Shown here piece after piece: positions 8,216 through 53,846 of a stretch of DNA of 64,000 nucleotides. Positions within the stretch are counted from its first letter, which is position 1, and each line of letters opens with the position of its first letter. A model generated the notes under the pieces. It was not told the origin of the DNA. It searched no databases and saw only the letters and a program-made list of their open reading frames with translations. This DNA comes from an uncultured Acetobacteroides sp. (GTDB lineage: Bacteria; Bacteroidota; Bacteroidia; Bacteroidales; ZOR0009). The DNA is taken from positions 620,001 through 684,000 of the forward strand of contig NZ_OY782755.1 of assembly GCF_963678165.1 (NCBI RefSeq), in the 5' to 3' direction. Position numbers and translations under genes: made by a program.

Positions 8216-8330
8216 GATGATGAAAAATCTTAGCTTTTGGAGGGTTTTGGAGGGCGTGGGGGAGGGGAGGAGCATGTAGATGGAAGGCGAAGGTTAATTT
8301 TCAACGGGCAAACGCTTAATAAACGCACTT

Positions 8331-8648
8331 AATCCTCCCGCTTAGGCGGGAGGTAGGGGGGGTGGCATATAACCCACCCCCTGCCCCCTCCTTGGAGGGG
8401 ATAATGAGTTCCAATCGTAGGCTGGTGCTTAATAATGGACTTTCTTTTTCAAGATTAGATTTTATTGGGGGAGTGTGAAATGTGTTGGAGGTAAGCGAAT
8501 GTTGATTAAAAACGGGAAAAACGCTTAATAGCCGCACGTAATCCCCTCCTTAGGAGGGGTAGGGGTGGGTTAGCGTCACTAAGCAGAATGAAAATCAATA
8601 TTTATTCGAATAAACCCACCCCCTTCCCCCTCCCATGGAGGGGATAAC
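8331..8648. repeat. Cluster of G/C-rich palindromic repeats
   Basis: At least four copies of the CCCCTCC-N4-GGAGGGG / ACCCACCCC repeat in both orientations: about 8331-8360 (CCTCCCGCTTAGGCGGGAGG), 8370-8403, 8540-8572 and 8612-8648. Several end in GGATAA-N-GAG or GGATAACGTGCT, as at 511-530. No gene is visible in 8010-8866. Confidence 0.7.
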
Positions 8649-8866
8649 GTGCTACTATTGGGCTTTTATCCTTTTGAATATGCCTTAGCTTCACCTGAAC
8701 AGAGAGGTGGGCTTGAGGATAATATTGAACTTCCTCCTCCCTCTTATTTATGCGGGTGAATAGGCATCGTTAATCATGCAGAAGGTGGATAATAGCAGGC
8801 TCCTTAGGCGCTAATGCTGCTACTATCATTCATAATCGACTGCCATGTAATAATTTCCCCTATTCT

Positions 8867-9223
8867 ACAATGCCTTACGCCACCTCTACAATGCTTTACG
8901 GAGCTTCGAGAGAGGCTTACGCCCTTTCGAGGGTAGCCTACGAGGTCTCGACAATAGCTTACGAAGCTTCGAGAGAAGCTTACGCCATCTCGAGAGTAGT
9001 TTACGCCATTTCAAAATTGGTTTACGAGCTCGTAAACTATCGTAGAGAGCTCGTAAACTATCGTAGAGATGGCGTAAACCATCGTCGAAATGGCGTCAGC
9101 TATCGTCGAAATGGCGTAAGCCAGTTTTCGAATGGCGTAAGGCTATCTCGTAGCCCCGTAGACTTTTATATAGATGGTGCGGAGCATCGTAGAGGACCTG
9201 TAGGCTACTGTAGAAGCTGTTTT
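8867..9223. repeat. 21-bp-period array A, two head-to-head arms
   Basis: Seventeen consecutive 21-bp units. The first eight have the form GCTTACGCCATYTCGAGAGTA; the rest are the reverse complement type, ATCGTCGAAATGGCGTAAGC. The arms meet at a perfect 18-bp palindrome, GTTTACGAGCTCGTAAAC (9020-9037), so the whole 357 bp is an imperfect inverted repeat built of short repeats. Because 21 is a multiple of three, a 150-codon frame is open through it, but it has no protein-like features. No known element recognised. Confidence 0.85.
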
Positions 9224-9406
9224 TTTGAGCTTAGAGGGGGTGTGGGGGAGGCGCAGGGCTGCGCGTGTGTGCTACGGAAAGGGTGCTGTGCCAATTATAC
9301 CTCCGAACACCCTATGCCTTAGGGGTAGGCCTTGCTTCGAGGGTACGAGCGGGAGGCTTGGGCGATTAGTGGCGGTGTTTGTGGTGTCTGTCAGGTCTGC
9401 TTTAGG

Positions 9407-30851: not shown

Positions 30852-31739
30852 TTATGGGTTGTTGCTTATTCGGCCTTTAGTTGAAGCTGCTTCCAGTTTT
30901 TCAATTTTCCCTTGAAGAGTTTCAATTTTTTTATTTTGCTCAATCATGTAAAGTGTCATTTCTTCCATTTTCTGCAAAAGTTTAGAGTTCAATTCGCCCA
31001 ATTCAGTACCGTTTTTCTCCATTTCCTTAGCTGGTGCTATTTCTGGTAAATGTTTTTGCTCTTTTACAAACATTTCCAATTCATTTAATGGCATCAATTT
31101 AAAATCCTTTTCAAAAACAAAATCAGCGCCATTTAAATCCACTTTAATTTCTCTTGCTCTAATTGTTCCGATGACATCAAGTTTATAAGTAGGAGAATTT
31201 GTCCCTATTCCAATCATGCCGCTCTGTTTTATGGTAAAAACAGAAGTATTACCCATTGGTCGAAATTCTATATAGTCATTATTGCCAAATTGTGCTACAT
31301 CCCAGAAAGATGTAGAACCTAATCTAAAAAAAGCCCAATCGTCAATATTTGTATTTTCAATTCTAAATGATGCTCTACTAGATTTGATATGAAGATTTGC
31401 AAGAGGAGAATCTGTGCCAATCCCTATCTGCTTATCTTGTCTTATTGTAAATACAGATGTATTGCCACCTGGTCGAAATTCTATATAATTATTGTTGCCA
31501 AATTGAGCTATATCCCAAAAAGTTGTTGAACCTAATCTGATAAATGCCCAATCATTAAGGTTGGTGTTTTCAACTCTTAAAGACGCTCTACTATATTTAA
31601 TATGAATATTCTCAAGTGGAGAATTTGTCCCAATTCCGATGTTTGAATTGGTGTAAATTGGATTTGTCCCATTCCATTGCGCTTTCACAGTCAAAACCGA
31701 ACCTAATAAAATTAGGCCAATTAAAATTTGTATTTTCAT
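30852..31739 (-). CDS. Secreted tail-fibre-like protein 3 with duplicated domain
   Basis: Start placed at MKIQILIGLI, aligned with the paralogues; signal peptide cleavage near VKAQ. Two copies of a roughly 65-residue unit follow (LENIHIKYSRASLRVENTN and LANLHIKSSRASFRIENTN, each with FWDIAQFGNN or FWDVAQFGNN and IEFRP). The conserved tail comes next: IGTIRAREIKVDL, HLPEIAPAKEMEKNG, coiled coil. The tail is nearly identical at DNA level to that of 27402-28274 while the N-terminal repeats differ, suggesting domain shuffling on a fixed oligomerisation module. Confidence 0.8.
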   Translation of the reverse strand: MKIQILIGLILLGSVLTVKAQWNGTNPIYTNSNIGIGTNSPLENIHIKYSRASLRVENTNLNDWAFIRLGSTTFWDIAQFGNNNYIEFRPGGNTSVFTIRQDKQIGIGTDSPLANLHIKSSRASFRIENTNIDDWAFFRLGSTSFWDVAQFGNNDYIEFRPMGNTSVFTIKQSGMIGIGTNSPTYKLDVIGTIRAREIKVDLNGADFVFEKDFKLMPLNELEMFVKEQKHLPEIAPAKEMEKNGTELGELNSKLLQKMEEMTLYMIEQNKKIETLQGKIEKLEAASTKGRISNNP

Positions 31740-32189: not shown

Positions 32190-33350
32190 CCTCATAGCCC
32201 TGTAAGGGCGTGATCTCCGAGCATAGGGTGCAGCCCTATGCGTTATTCATATTCGATCCACCGATATGTGCATCGCATACCATTCCGTGCCCACATTCGC
32301 GCATGTTCTTTCCGATGGGCTGCACCCATCCTTAATGGATTACGCCCTTTCAGGGCTATTCCAAATCCTTCGCCACCATCCTGCTTTCGCCCCCCATCAT
32401 AGCCCTGAAAGGGCGTAATCTCCGAGCATAGGGCGTAACCCTATGCTCTTTTCCCGATGGGTTACATCCAACGTTGGTATATTGCGCCCTATTTTTCTTT
32501 ACGATGGGCTACACCCATCCTTATGGACAACGCCCCTTCAGGGCTACTATTCCTTGTCCTACGGGTTACGGCCATCGTTGGTATATTGCGCTCTATGTTT
32601 CTTTTCCGATGGGCTGCACCCATTCTTACTGGATTACGCCCCTTCATGGCTGCTATTCCTTGTCTATGTGTTATATCTAACGTTGGTATATTACGTCCCA
32701 TGCTCTCATATTCGATGAACCGATACGTGCATCGCACACCATACCATCTCATGCCCACATTCGCGTATTGCCTATCGCCGATGAACATATTTACGCGCAT
32801 GTTCTTTCCGATGGGCTTTCACCCATCTTTAATGGACAACGCCCTTTCAGGGCTGCTATTCCTTCCCTATGGGTTGCGTCCATCGTTGGTATATTGCGCT
32901 CTATGTTTCTTTTCTGATGGGCTGCACCCATCCTTATGGATAACGCCCTTTCAGGGCTACTATTCCTTCTCTATGTGTTACATCCAACGTTGGTATATTA
33001 CGTCCCATGCTCTCCTATTCGATGAACCTATCCGTGCATCGCACACCATACCATCTCATGCCACATTCGCGCATTACCTATCGCCGATGACATATATACG
33101 CGCATGTTCTTTCCGATGGGCTACCCCCTCCCCATAGCCCTGAAAGGGCGCTATCAATGAGCATAGGGCATCGCCCTATGCGTTATTCCGAGCATAGGGT
33201 AACGCCCTATGCTCTTTTCCCTATGGGTTACGTCCATCGTTGGTATATTGCGCCCTATTTTTCTTTACGACGGGCGCCCCCATCGTTAATGGATAACGCC
33301 CTATGCTCTTTTCCGGTCATAGGACGTAACCCTATACACGCCCTACCACT
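32190..33350. repeat. REP-like island 1
   Basis: Several units of about 150-170 bp. A full unit opens with AGCCCTGAAAGGGCGT and closes with its inverse, ACGCCCTTTCAGGGCT. Inside are GAGCATAGGG-N5-CCCTATGCTC, GATGGGYTACA, CCAACGTTGGTATATTGCG and GATGGGCT-N4-CCATC hairpins. Clear units lie at about 32198-32362 and 32400-32550; further partial ones extend to 33350. A second unit type has GCATCGCACACCATACCAT and CCGATGAACATAT. Open frames across the island are by-products. Confidence 0.85.
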
Positions 33351-36531: not shown

Positions 36532-36984
36532 CTAATCCCACACATAACGTTCGTCGTATTCCACCTCGTACTTACTCAGGATAGTCCGATACTCCTCCTC
36601 GTACGATTTGTCTCCATGGTGCTTTTGCTGGTTGGCGATATAGTTTACAATCATGTCCACATCTCTTGGGTTAACCGAGAATGCCCCATAGCCATCCTGC
36701 CAGTAGAAGTTTCGGTAAGCACCACCCTTTGTTTTAATCCACTTCGACGAGTGCGACTTTAGATCCTCCATAAGCGTTACTAGCGCAACCTTTTTCGAGA
36801 GAAGGCATAGAATATGTATATGGTTGGTGTATCCGCCAACTCGTATCGGCTGGTACTCTAGGTTTTTGCAGATGCCACCGAGGTAGCTATGCAGCTCTTC
36901 CTCTATGGCGGAGTCTATCATCGGCACCCTATGCTTGGTGCTGAACACGATGTGGATGTAGTTGGTCACGAGCGACTGTCCCAT
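36532..36984 (-). CDS. Y1 (IS200/REP-associated) tyrosine transposase
   Basis: 150 residues, full length for the family. HUH metal-binding motif HIHIL within GGYTNHIHILCLL (about residues 50-62) and a C-terminal helix VDMIVNYIANQQKHH whose tyrosine is the expected nucleophile, followed by the conserved EEEYRTILSKYEVEYDERYVW. These single-strand transposases act on hairpin-bounded DNA. The gene is embedded in REP-like units and its flanks carry unit fragments (GATGGGCT, GTTAGTATATTACG), so it is the likely mobiliser of the islands here. It looks intact. Confidence 0.92.
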   Translation of the reverse strand: MGQSLVTNYIHIVFSTKHRVPMIDSAIEEELHSYLGGICKNLEYQPIRVGGYTNHIHILCLLSKKVALVTLMEDLKSHSSKWIKTKGGAYRNFYWQDGYGAFSVNPRDVDMIVNYIANQQKHHGDKSYEEEYRTILSKYEVEYDERYVWD

Positions 36985-37488: not shown

Positions 37489-38421
37489 CTAGTTCTTATC
37501 CATCTTAATGGTAAGCATCACCATCTCATCGCCTGGCACGTTTACCGAAGTTGTTACTGCGGGATGCCCAACTTTCTCTGCCGTCACCGTATACTCGGTG
37601 GCATGCATGTTCTTAAGGTAGCAGATACCCTTATCGGCAGTCTTCTTTACAATAGGCTTAACCGTCGTTTCTACGCCCATTGCCAGCTTCTGCATCTTTG
37701 GGGTAAACGTCAGCGTAACCCCCTTTATCCCTTCGCCGGTGCTCGAGCACACCCTTGTCTTAAGCGTAATCTTGCTAGTAGCCCTGCTTGGCAGCTTACG
37801 GGTGGTGGTATAGCTCCTGTAGAACTCCGGATGCGTATGCTTCACCATCACCAGCAAAAGGTCGATCTTCTTCAGTACATCGTCGTTGGCTGCAAATAGT
37901 TCTTGGAGCTTAGCCGTTCCCATCTTCGAGTTCACCTTGGTGGCGTGCGTCACGGGTAGCATCAGCTTAAACTTCTCAATCATGCTGTTTAGCGCCACCA
38001 GCATCGCGGGTGTAACCCCGTACTTTTCCAGCTCTACAGCATGTTCCATCGCATTGGCGTACACCACCATGGCGCTGTCGCATAGCGTCGAGGCCGATGC
38101 TTTCTTCAGCTTGCTCTCCGTGAAGTGTACCTTCGCGCTCAGCACCACATTTCCGTTCAGCCGCCCATACGACTCCACCATCTCGCCTACGTTCAGCGTC
38201 ATCTTCACCAGATCGCCCCGTACCAAATCCTTATTCAGGGCTATACCCGTCGAGTTGCGCGTCAGCAGCTCCTTGGTGCTCACAATCGCCCCAACATTCG
38301 CATCCAGCACTCCCCAGTACTGCAGGTAGCCCGGTAGCGGATCCAGTATTGTCTTGTTAGCTTTTAGAAGATCAATCACGGCCAGGTTCATCGTTAGCTT
38401 TTGTTCGTACAAGTACCTCAT
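37489..38421 (-). CDS. Helical protein with C-terminal regulatory-like domain, 310 aa
   Basis: No signal peptide. Residues 1-210 are predicted helical, with alanine- and leucine-rich amphipathic segments (for example CDSAMVVYANAMEHAVELEK). The last 95 residues form a beta domain with SKITLKTRVCSSTGEGIKGV and GYCYLKNMHATEYTVTAEK-like phrasing (here GICYLKN), resembling a carboxypeptidase-regulatory-like fold. It is well expressed-looking, with its own terminator. It sits between REP island 2 and array B. An ATG at codon 11 is an alternative start. Function unknown. Confidence 0.7.
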   Translation of the reverse strand: MRYLYEQKLTMNLAVIDLLKANKTILDPLPGYLQYWGVLDANVGAIVSTKELLTRNSTGIALNKDLVRGDLVKMTLNVGEMVESYGRLNGNVVLSAKVHFTESKLKKASASTLCDSAMVVYANAMEHAVELEKYGVTPAMLVALNSMIEKFKLMLPVTHATKVNSKMGTAKLQELFAANDDVLKKIDLLLVMVKHTHPEFYRSYTTTRKLPSRATSKITLKTRVCSSTGEGIKGVTLTFTPKMQKLAMGVETTVKPIVKKTADKGICYLKNMHATEYTVTAEKVGHPAVTTSVNVPGDEMVMLTIKMDKN

Positions 38422-39143
38422 GGTAAATAGTTTTTTGTGGGTTTTTATTTAGTACAAAAACAAATATAATGTACTACATTAACATTTTCAAGAATTATAG
38501 TGAAAAAATATCAAATACACTTTATTTCACGCATGCCATCTTTTATATATGATATCTCCACATCTAATAGCTGCCATTTATCACCTGCTCGCCCTACGGT
38601 AAAATGCACCTACCCGCTACCACAAAGCGCATTACCTGTCATGTAAAAAAACATAGACACCAGCACTCGTCAAACCGTACCAGTAGCAAATATTCCCATT
38701 TTATTGCTCAATCCTTACACCCCGCTGCTATCACCTCGCCACCATCCCGCTCTTCCCCCCTCATAGCCCTGAAAGGGCGTGATCAATGAGCATAGGGTGC
38801 AGCTCTATGCGTAATTATGCGTCATCCATATTCGATATACCCTCGTTCGCGTATGGGGCATCGCTCATTAAACCATACCAGTAGCACATAATCCCATTTT
38901 ATTGCTCAATCCTTACACCCCGCTGCTATCACCTCGCCACCATCCCGCTTCACCCCTCATAGCCCTGAAAGGGCGTGATCAATGAGCATAGGATGCAGCC
39001 CTATGCGTAATTATGCATCATCCGTATTCGATATACCCTCGTTCGCGCATGGGAATCGCCCTATACTTACACGCATCCGCCACACACCTTATTCGCATCC
39101 GCCATGCACCGCACACGCCACCTCCACGGCGCTACTACGCCAC
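38422..39143. repeat. REP-like fragments between the 310-aa gene and array B
   Basis: Two partial units, at about 38762-38800 and 38958-39005 (CATAGCCCTGAAAGGGCGTGATCA then GAGCATAGG-N4-CAGCCCTATGCG), are part of a longer direct duplication: TTTTATTGCTCAATCCTTAC...CCACCATCCCGCT occurs at about 38699 and 38898. No gene is seen. Confidence 0.7.
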
Positions 39144-39521
39144 CGCACACCCATACAACGTCTCCGCGCTGTGCTACGATGCAATATCTCTGTGCTACGA
39201 TGTAATATCTCCGTGCTACGATGCAATATCTCTGTGTTACGATGCACATTCTTTGCGATACTACGTTTCCGCACTCCAATACTACGTCATCGCACTTGAA
39301 TACTACGTCTCCGCACTTCAATACTACGTCCTCGCACACCAATACTACGTCTTCGCACCTCAATCCTAGGCACTCGCACTTCAATACTACGTCTTCGCAC
39401 CTCAATACTAGGAGCTCGCACTTCAATACTAGGTCTCCGCGCATCAATACTAGGCACTCGCATTCTAATACTACGCTCCCGCACACCGATTCAACGACAC
39501 CGCACAGCCATACAACGACAC
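39144..39521. repeat. 21-bp-period array B
   Basis: Eighteen contiguous 21-bp units. The commonest form is CGCACTTCAATACTACGTCTC; units 2-5 have the variant core TGCTACGATGCAAT, and several late units read TAGG in place of TACG. All run in one direction. As in arrays A and C the period is exactly 21, so frames stay open on both strands, giving heptapeptide patterns such as YYVSALQ that are not convincing proteins. It lies 0.7 kb from the 310-aa helical protein. Confidence 0.85.
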
Positions 39522-40496
39522 CGCAACGGCACTACTCACAACCGCCTCACCAATTCTTGCTTTCGCAACACCGCTCACCCGCTTTGCACACCGCATCTAC
39601 CCACATCTGCATCCCCAACAATCCATATCATCTCGTTACGGGCTATTGCAGCATCAGCCATCACGGCAGCAACCACCAGCAGCTGCTATTCCATCAGCCG
39701 CAGGTATCAATGCATGGGCATTCTATCCAATGGCACCTCTCGCATCGATACTGCTATGCCGTCCGCTCGCTGTTGTAGCTCAAGTTCCGCGTTGCTTCAT
39801 TTTAAATTACCCAGTCTTTGGGCGTGCGCTCAGCGATATCGTCAGCGGTAACATTGCCGATACCCATTTTATTAGAAGTAGATGTCAAATTTCATCTGGT
39901 GCATGCTAATCCGGCTTGGCCTCTCTCGCTGCATCCTAAAGGCTATCATTCTGACACCGTCATGCTGCTACTATGTTCCAAGGATTATCCATCCTTTATT
40001 CCTCTTGCATGATGAATAGAAAAACGGTAAGCGAATATTTCCCTTAAATCGCTATCATCTAGTAAAAGTCATATTAAAGCACAACGCCATATTTTAAGGG
40101 TGAAATCCCTGAATATGTCCTTATGGATTAAACATTAAAAAATAGAATAAAACGATCATTAGGGGGATAACTAATCAGCGGCAGACAGCCGTACTATTGC
40201 AGGATAACATTTCTCCGTAAACACTATGGCGCAGCCATACCAGACTGGCACGAATTCTGTTCGAGCTGGTACATCCCGTTTGCGGGAGAGCGAAGCAACT
40301 ACAACGCCAATCTGCGCAATAGCGATGAAAGGACTAGAAGCAATTATTTGAGATGAGAGCATTTCACCGCGACCGAGCGAGTTAATTTGTGCCAAGGTTT
40401 TTTGGTCCTTTTTGACCTACAAAAAGGACAGATAGAAAGATGAGATTCGTTTTATAAGGTCTTACATTCTGCTAAATGCTTAGATTGTTTCCCAAA
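39522..40496. other. Gene-free stretch
   Basis: 39522-40140 shows no gene or clear repeat. About 40170-40440 shares with 790-1040 a block containing GCCATACCAGACTGGCACGAA and ends in GGTCCTTTTTGACCTACAAAAAGGAC, a hairpin-forming piece. It looks like another dispersed repeat family. Confidence 0.45.
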
Positions 40497-52575: not shown

Positions 52576-52706
52576 CGTGGGGTGCCGCAGCGTCTGGTGA
52601 GGGTGTTGCCCGAACTTTTTAGCTATCCGCTGTCGGAAAATGGGCTTCAGGAATTGTTGGAATGAAAAAATCGTTAAATTTGGGCTGCTGGTCTTTGAAA
52701 AAGTGC

Positions 52707-52979
52707 CCCCTTCCGGTGCTCGGAAATGGTTTCAAGAGGTGAAAGTGGTTTCCGAGCATGCTCGGAAATGCCTTTTGTGCTTTGGAGGTGTTTCCGAGTA
52801 TGCTCGGAATTTGTTTTTCGGGTTGAAATTCATTTCTGAGTATGCTCGGAAAAGGTTGTCGAGGCTTGGTGCTATTTCCGAGTATGCTCGGAAGTGCTTT
52901 TAGTGCGAAGGAGTGAATTCCGAGCATGCTCGGAAACAGCTTTCGGGGTGTACACCTATTTCCGAGGTGCAAGGTTTGG
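52707..52979. repeat. 21/42-bp-period array C of palindromes
   Basis: The palindrome TTTCCGAGYATGCTCGGAAA recurs at 52749, 52791, 52833, 52875 and 52917, with truncated copies near 52710 and 52959: exactly every 42 bp. The 21-bp segments between them share a looser pattern (TTTTCGNG/TTTGGAGG). So the array alternates two 21-bp unit types. It ends 127 bp before the DUF6261 gene. Frames are open on both strands, giving 14-residue repeats such as FPSMLGN, probably by arithmetic only. Confidence 0.85.
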
Positions 52980-53105
52980 GAGCTTGGGCGCTTCCTACCC
53001 CAATCTCCGAGGGGAGAGGGGGCCTCGGCAAGGCTCCAGGTGCAAATGCACCGGAGCAGCAGGGGCGCCGCCATGGGTCAGCATCAACCTACAAAAGGAA
53101 TTGGC

Positions 53106-53846
53106 ATGAAGCTTACAGTTGCACTTGCCCGCACGAAGCTCAACGACGAGGTTGGGTACGGTTACGCGCTAATTTCGGCCGCCGAGAGCATGGCGCCGCC
53201 AGCGCTGATGGCCTCGAAGCCGTACCTCCGGATGGTGGCGGCCTACGAGAGGCTGTCGGACGGGCAGTACAAGCATCGGAAGAACGCCTACACCGGGGAG
53301 CTGCGCGAGCTCGATCGGCGGCGCGACCGCTCGTTCCGCTCGCTATCGCTGGCCGTTCAGAGCGCCGCCTGCTCGGGCTACGAGGACGAGGAGGCGGCCG
53401 CAAAACCGCTCGTGGAGCTGATGGAGCGCTACGGCAGCAGCTTCACCCACGGTTCGAACATGGGCGAGTCGGGCATGCTCTCCAAGCTGCTTGTCGACCT
53501 GAGGGCGGGCAGCTGCGCCGAGGGCGTTGGCAAGCTGGGGCTGGAGCGGAAGGTGGCGCAGCTCGAGGAGCTGGAGTCGGAGTTTGCCAGCTGCCAGCGC
53601 TTGAGCATCGGCGATAGAGCGGAGTAGAATCGCACCCTCTCGGCGTCAACCGTTCGGCACGACTTCGAGGAGGCGGTGCGGGTGTTTATGGTCTACCTCC
53701 AGGCCAAGCTGGCGGAGGAGGACGATGAGCGGTGGTGCAGCTTCTGCGGCTCGGTGGCTACGCTGAACAAGGAGCTGGCCACGCGCGAGGCGCTCCGGGT
53801 CGCCGCACGAAAACGAAAGAAGAAGAATGAAGATATCCAGCCGTGA
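53106..53846 (+). pseudogene. DUF6261-family gene with an in-frame amber codon
   Basis: From MKLTVALARTKLNDEVGYGY the frame runs 173 codons to TAG (53625-53627), then 72 more sense codons to TGA at 53844. The whole reads as one DUF6261-like helical protein of normal length: central KPLVELMERYGSSF, LGLERKVAQLEELESEF, then after the stop NRTLSASTVRHDFEEAVRVF and a basic tail (ARKRKKKNED). A terminator follows. The amber probably replaced Gln or Trp. Very GC-rich compared with neighbours. Function of the family unknown. Confidence 0.75.

Follow-up and report, generated by a model that had tools for sequence, protein, structure and literature searches.

The stretch of DNA analysed here—a window of 64,000 nucleotides from an uncultured Acetobacteroides sp.—contains at positions 8863–9219 an inverted array of 21-bp units, which we regard, with a probability of about one half, as a putative helically phased binding array on double-stranded DNA, probably read by the helical protein encoded next to it, the inverted centre serving as a loading dyad. 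The presence of such arrays beside genes for helical proteins suggests an undescribed DNA-reading system. Among the papers listed in searches of an open-access library, which leaves out most subscription papers, none described such arrays; the statement of a preliminary description of this DNA that the array matches no known element held in these searches.

Architecture of the array and copies of its centre

The array consists of eight plus nine units, each exactly 21 bp long, that are placed head to head without any indel over a register of 357 bp, the period of 21 being returned by both TRF and lag autocorrelation. The left arm (8863–9030, minus orientation), upstream of the gene designated P0001, comprises eight units in the TTACG orientation, i.e. 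the reverse complement of the CGTAA unit, and the right arm (9031–9219, plus orientation) nine units in the CGTAAAC...TCGAAA orientation. The units turn round at GTTTACGAGCTCGTAAAC (9020–9037), a perfect palindrome. The preliminary description had reported the 17 units, their exact spacing, the first eight as the reverse complement of the rest and their meeting at a perfect palindrome, all of which is confirmed here, with its coordinates (8867–9223) off by a few bases. Within each unit two blocks are conserved, positions 1–7 (CGTAAAC) and 13–18 (TCGAAA), lying approximately one helical turn apart.

The genome of the window (G000), in which the locus is found on a single 4.3-Mb contig, carries a second array with the identical centre (G000b) at about position 3,957,636. 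Among the genomes of the same genus, G002 contains four further arrays with this centre, and G001 one decayed copy as well as one inverted-arm array built of another unit. An inverted-arm array at about 1400–1720 of locus L075 (G001 C26) has the different unit CGGAAACGCGCAGCTAAACGC, which is also the unit of the array belonging to the G001 C4 gene. The 18-bp centre is invariant in the six good loci from two species, the mean column identity over 126 columns being 78%, and the identity to the unit consensus drops outward, unit 1 agreeing at 16.1 of the 21 positions (n = 12) and unit 10 at 11.2 (n = 5). Concerning the register, the six centres have around them, up to a distance of 260 bp, 67 TTACG/CGTAA motifs in the correct orientation, and 66 of these are located at multiples of 21 bp; since 12 of the 67 are the centre itself, the informative count is 54 of 55. 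The only off-register motif belongs to G000b, in unit nine of its right arm, where the TCGAA block is still in register. The related loci thus keep the 21-bp register unbroken by indels, the point on which the preliminary description had declared itself open to correction.

A 56-bp head-to-head frame, TTACG-N16-TTACG-N4-CGTAA-N16-CGTAA, was sought with at most two mismatches in 393 genomes of the order and was found in 13 of them, the reversed control being found in 15, so that inexact single matches are meaningless and only exact and repeated ones count. Among the matches listed, exact ones occur only in G000 (two loci), G002 (three) and G108 (two), all of which carry the P0001 gene family; G002 and G108 have additional loci at one or two mismatches. 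The ten other genomes have inexact matches only, many of them visibly 7-bp or direct repeats. The junction type TTTACG-N4-CGTAAA recurs in another family of Bacteroidales, represented by G108, where two arrays are positioned upstream of P0001 relatives (L109 and L164) and the third is solo (L319), its unit being, by eye, that of the L109 array. Related junctions were seen upstream of family members in G361 and G378. In the flanks of the members, exact TTTAC-N6-GTAAA is present five times upstream (three from this genus), once downstream and not at all in one shuffle; with one mismatch allowed it is uninformative (17 upstream, 5 downstream, 9 shuffled). A scan of the genome collection for the centre, from which near relatives may be missing, gave two matches, not periodic and taken as chance, and the centre pattern was not found in IMG/VR.

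Genes adjoining the arrays and arrays standing alone

The P0001 gene (7281–8009, minus strand), starting approximately 850 bp from the array, encodes a protein of 242 amino acids from an uncharacterised family, predicted as all-helical in a low-confidence model. In Pfam and NCBIfam its best matches are insignificant (E 0.12) and no DNA-binding family was matched; PF19775 (DUF6261) gave no match at E ≤ 1, and the PQLLE model (NF052641) likewise was not matched. The single-sequence AlphaFold model is too poor to be of use (pLDDT 58), and a Foldseek search with it returned no match at E ≤ 1e-3. Neither P0001 nor the 310-aa protein described below gave a match in IMG/VR, and P0001 gave none in the phage and plasmid collections either.

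Relatives of P0001 at 69, 60 and 50% identity adjoin the arrays G002 C9, G002 C6 and G001 C119, respectively, with the array upstream each time. A single-protein search revealed just one other relative in G000, which makes a chance link between array and gene unlikely. Twelve distant relatives (19–25% identity) come from four other families of the order; the upstream sequence, obtained for ten of them, shows the best lag at 21 or 42 in seven, strongly (≥0.65) in four, and no such signal in L101. A profile built from 19 proteins has members in 44 of the 393 genomes of the order and in 17 of 296 genomes of the phylum, including other classes. Eleven of the phylum loci were inspected, mostly with lag 21 or 42 upstream, L267 being weak, L271 having none and L275 an 8-bp repeat. 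If a strong array is taken to be one with an identity of 0.65 or more at a single lag over 63 bp, it is found upstream of 12 of the 23 close P0001-type genes, two of the 23 having almost no upstream sequence. In the whole profile set examined (81 distinct genes from 119 profile matches), it occurs upstream in 37/79 and downstream in 19/80, the downstream position being seen in some subfamilies. Against arrays with shuffled columns, the P0001-type motif CGKAAAC-N5-NCTAAA comes out ahead at p ≤ 0.05 in 7/12 core arrays and in 3/4 of those from the phylum; elsewhere it does so in 3/21 other upstream, 3/16 downstream, 3/10 PQLLE, 1/8 DUF6261, 1/9 weak core and 0/19 sampled arrays. It should be taken as a lead only, since it was partly derived from the same arrays.

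The window contains two more arrays of this class (39.1–39.6 kb and 52.7–52.95 kb), and on both of them, as on the association with genes, the preliminary description was silent. The second array (39086–39601) has a period of 21/42 bp, one orientation and a different unit, approximately CTACGTCTCCGCACTTCAATA. It lies upstream of the gene for the 310-aa protein (37489–38421, minus strand), the N-terminal part of which looks helical by eye and the end of which is CarboxypepD_reg-like (Pfam E 7e-4, under the curated cut-off). The third array (52681–52975), with a 42/84-bp unit carrying the palindrome TTCCGAGCATGCTCGGAA, is directly followed by the open part of a DUF6261 gene (52983–53627, plus strand) that passes the PF19775 cut-off (63.6 bits versus 27); this gene may be decaying, given the one in-frame stop within its family match (array and gene, 52681–53729).

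The DUF6261 family has 28 matches in G000. Loci were examined for 30 of 97 DUF6261 matches and for 23 of 43 PQLLE matches, seven partial ones with loci being omitted. A strong array, with a period of 41, 42 or 43, precedes 27 of the 30 DUF6261 genes, and one precedes 11 of the 22 PQLLE genes with enough sequence; downstream there is none in either family. Among all the flank arrays, 90 of 94 have periods of 21, 41, 42 or 43, the remaining four being 23, 24, 24 and 54. The background, an array within 1.5 kb upstream of 34 and downstream of 31 of 221 sampled G000 genes, comes from one genome and the family loci from several, so that odds calculated against it are indicative only. The arrays of DUF6261 also exhibit a strand asymmetry, the antisense strand folding better than the gene-sense one in 22 of 27 (p 0.002).

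Within a genome, solo arrays have units in common with gene-linked ones: G000b with the P0001 array, G001 C26 with that of the G001 C4 gene, L252_2897 with the L146 array, and L262_13308 with the PQLLE array L223. With the HMMs, no family gene was found in the 15–20 kb around G000b, G002 C5, G002 C16 and G001 C26—G002 C16 lying at a contig end with one side unseen—or in the 3 kb around L319. Around the four gene-linked arrays the neighbouring genes largely differ, with little synteny, and the gene and the array thus appear to travel together. The module at G002 C9 is placed near two genes, which we take to be LysE- and RlmN-like; their counterparts in the window (41–44 kb) lie, by eye, near the module of the 310-aa protein.

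In 415 kb sampled from G000, 32 tandem arrays were detected, i.e. about 330 by extrapolation to the genome, and 30 of the 32 have periods within 0–2 bases of 21, 42, 63 or 84. In 369 kb of G009, a genome with no match to the three families, only one of seven arrays is near a multiple of 21 (Fisher 6e-5); in 147 kb of G084, rich in members, it is four of seven, and 23 kb of G021, taken as a further control, contained no array. By hand counts, the 21-bp TTACG pattern or its reversed control is present in 25 of 44 profile-positive versus 47 of 349 profile-negative genomes (p 8e-10), and the pattern alone in 17/44 versus 23/349 (p 5e-8); some of the matches in the 393 genomes are accounted for by 7-bp repeats. 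Heptanucleotide arrays of the (TTACGAA)n type were observed in G066, G071, G245 and other genomes of the order, 7 bp being a third of 21 bp. Just 4 of the 32 sampled arrays adjoin a member recognised by the three HMMs, so that the neighbour need not read most arrays; a few others adjoin small proteins without a Pfam family.

Helical phase and the alternative explanations

After dropping the arrays similar to another one, 94 of 117 were retained, 84 of which were long and variable enough for analysing the conservation along the unit. With an expected harmonic level of about 1, the 10.5-bp harmonic is the strongest in the 21-bp arrays (1.70 ± 0.25, n = 23), with a small lead over the whole-unit harmonic (1.60), and in the 42-bp arrays (2.43 ± 0.30, n = 43); in the 41-bp arrays it comes second to the whole-unit harmonic (2.12 versus 2.45, n = 18). 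The 10.5-bp wave is individually significant at 0.05 in 23 of the 84 arrays, with about four expected, and in 31 of 108 before similar arrays were dropped. The 3-bp harmonic is at or below the baseline. Selection on spacing in helical turns, as proposed in the preliminary description, is supported by this wave and by the near-21n periods of the sampled arrays. Together with the absence of a coding signal and of a consistent hairpin signal, both considered below, the wave suggests that the molecule read is double-stranded DNA and that the contacts lie on one of its faces.

The phase could also be selected for its own sake, the arrays being anisotropically bendable DNA for wrapping by gyrase or another wrapping or nucleoid protein, like BIMEs, and the helical genes mere neighbours. 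We consider this unlikely, even though it is the strongest of the competing explanations: the phase is kept where the sequence diverges, 28 of the 32 sampled arrays have no recognised member next to them, and the E. coli gyrase motif is reported to have 10.75-bp GC waves, and BIME-2 elements to attract gyrase (PMC6379681). The base composition is divided, since 10.5 bp ranks first for WW and purine and second for GC in the 21-bp arrays, and 10.2 bp ranks first for GC and purine in the 41-bp arrays, but in the 42-bp arrays, which form the largest group, the 10.5-bp wave of GC is weak (rank 9 of 20). The sequence is, moreover, constrained, with the centre and the unit common to several loci and the junction type to several families; the genomes with the TTACG-type 21-bp pattern tend to be those with the P0001 gene family; and among the 28 sampled arrays with genes on both sides no preference for convergent ones is evident (5 convergent, 8 divergent and 15 tandem). 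Somewhat less likely still is a purely mutational origin, in which a duplication process stepping by 21 bp, often in mobile gene cassettes, would leave functionless arrays with a phase reflecting that process. Clear local duplications within the arms, such as one of 63 bp in L023, the solo arrays and the non-syntenic modules are in line with it, but it predicts neither the 10.5-bp wave inside the units nor an invariant centre across loci and a like junction type in another family. Nor were there register slips in six loci at about 30% divergence from the unit consensus; here the arms were tracked only while the units were recognisable, the motif count spanning 260 bp regardless.

Two explanations place the function outside the DNA. 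A structured RNA, either a repeat RNA with a helical protein partner as in type III toxin-antitoxin systems or one long hairpin RNA, is improbable. The array does lie upstream of the gene, and its single strands fold very stably against shuffled sequence (z of −11.4 and −15.0, the latter for the gene-sense strand), a strong fold that is expected of any inverted array; short palindromes abound in the DUF6261 arrays (23.6 per kb versus 9.6 after shuffling). The covariation of mirror units over 11 loci, however, is not consistent (p = 0.070, 0.007, 0.41, 0.71, 0.83, 0.06, 0.37, 0.51, 0.48, 0.57 and 0.13), G000b alone standing out, and G-T wobble is not in excess (126 G-T versus 120 A-C mismatches; 21 versus 32 in the DUF6261 arrays). 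With mirror-position units not consistently more alike and no wobble bias, the hairpin or cruciform was abandoned as the selected structure, the preliminary description having spoken of a cruciform-like one. In the P0001-type arrays the sense strand is not consistently more stable than the antisense one, the same count shows no palindrome richness in the A2 and PQLLE groups, Rfam gave no match at gathering score, only sub-threshold models on the inverted arms, and helical-turn periods with a 10.5-bp wave have no reason in RNA. The idea that the long ORF across the window array (8870–9322) and similar ORFs elsewhere encode a heptad-repeat protein is very improbable indeed and was rejected. The VYELVN frame is open at several loci, but open frames carry no weight, being expected of any 21-bp repeat with a stop-free unit. 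The differences per codon position (289/308/233) leave the third position the least variable, the 3-bp harmonic is absent (0.70 and 0.99), and periods of 41 and 43 bp are not multiples of a codon. Codon-level purifying selection, which the preliminary description had named as a reason to give up its view, finds no support, there being no codon-position signature.

A possible mechanism and the closest known systems

If the array is a helically phased binding site on double-stranded DNA, the 21-bp unit, i.e. two turns, would present two contact blocks, CGTAAAC and TCGAAA, about one turn apart on one face of the helix. The invariant dyad GTTTACG-AGCT-CGTAAAC would then act as an operator or nucleation site, where the protein would load and from where it would spread both ways along the opposed arms. 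The most likely reader would be P0001, the predicted all-helical product of the adjacent gene, or a partner travelling with it, the role of which may be autoregulation or chromosome organisation; the distance of about 850 bp from the P0001 start, far for a simple operator, counts against the model. Paralogues (DUF6261, PQLLE-like and others) would have their own arrays, at their own gene and as solo copies elsewhere. More tentatively, and with the odds rather against it, the arrays may belong to an undescribed system spread over the Bacteroidota, in which each genome would encode paralogous all-helical proteins by the dozen, every one of them with private helix-phased 21n-bp addresses at its own gene and at solo sites, from the inverted centres of which it would spread and so organise or silence the DNA. 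Should this be true, a large unnamed part of the intergenic DNA of these bacteria would be a phased DNA code with cognate proteins, in effect a novel way of organising or regulating the chromosome; DUF6261 and its relatives would acquire a testable function, and the recurrence of 21n-bp arrays with unrelated sequences in this group would be explained.

The nearest known logic appears to be that of the iterons and of RAYT/REP, both of which fail on the linked protein. The iterons of plasmid replication initiators are direct repeats of about 20–22 bp, spaced by two helical turns, located upstream of the gene and with an inverted half-repeat dyad as the operator. The window array resembles them in its direct repeats of about two turns, a gene of similar size and an inverted dyad (21-bp units with the palindromic centre). 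In contrast to iterons, the arrays here have head-to-head arms, appear to be chromosomal and are extrapolated to hundreds of copies; no replication-initiator domain turned up in the Pfam scans of P0001 and its relatives. As to a plasmid or an origin as the site, the locus is on the single 4.3-Mb contig, and the plasmid collection gave no match to P0001. In RAYT/REP systems (PMC2817692), the gene is flanked by cognate repeats varying with it, many dispersed repeats have no gene, and inverted arrangements occur. Cognate repeats beside the gene and dispersed (the P0001 array and G000b, the G001 pair and, by eye, G108), inverted and varying with the linked gene are seen here too, but neither P0001 nor the scanned relatives contain a Y1/HUH tyrosine transposase in Pfam, and the units form helix-phased tandem arrays, usually on one side of the gene, instead of single palindromes.

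The strong gyrase sites and BIME-2 (PMC6379681) are similar in their helical-turn periodicity and their intergenic, dispersed occurrence; the arrays found here differ from them in being tandem, in the conserved sequence of their 21n-bp units and in being linked to a gene family. Type III toxin-antitoxin systems (PMC5086642, PMC8860590) likewise have a small protein gene preceded by tandem repeats, yet P0001 has no match to a ToxN-type endoribonuclease in Pfam, NCBIfam and PADLOC and is all-helical in its poor model, and the arrays are phased to DNA turns with no RNA signature found. Members of DUF6261 (PF19775) and PQLLE (NF052641) adjoin 21n-bp arrays as P0001 does, the third array of the window preceding a DUF6261 gene; these families are, however, known by name only, and P0001 matches neither model.

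Some other features of the window should also be mentioned. Positions 8330–8410 and 8535–8645 contain GC-rich interspersed inverted repeats of the CCCTCC..GGAGGGG type with AACCCACCCCC, recurring within 300 bp. Longer tandem duplications are found at 31191–31634, 32495–33122 and 38672–39053, with units of 213, 307 and 196 bp, respectively, and an ORF of 150 amino acids (36532–36984, minus strand) resembles, by eye, an IS200-type Y1 transposase.
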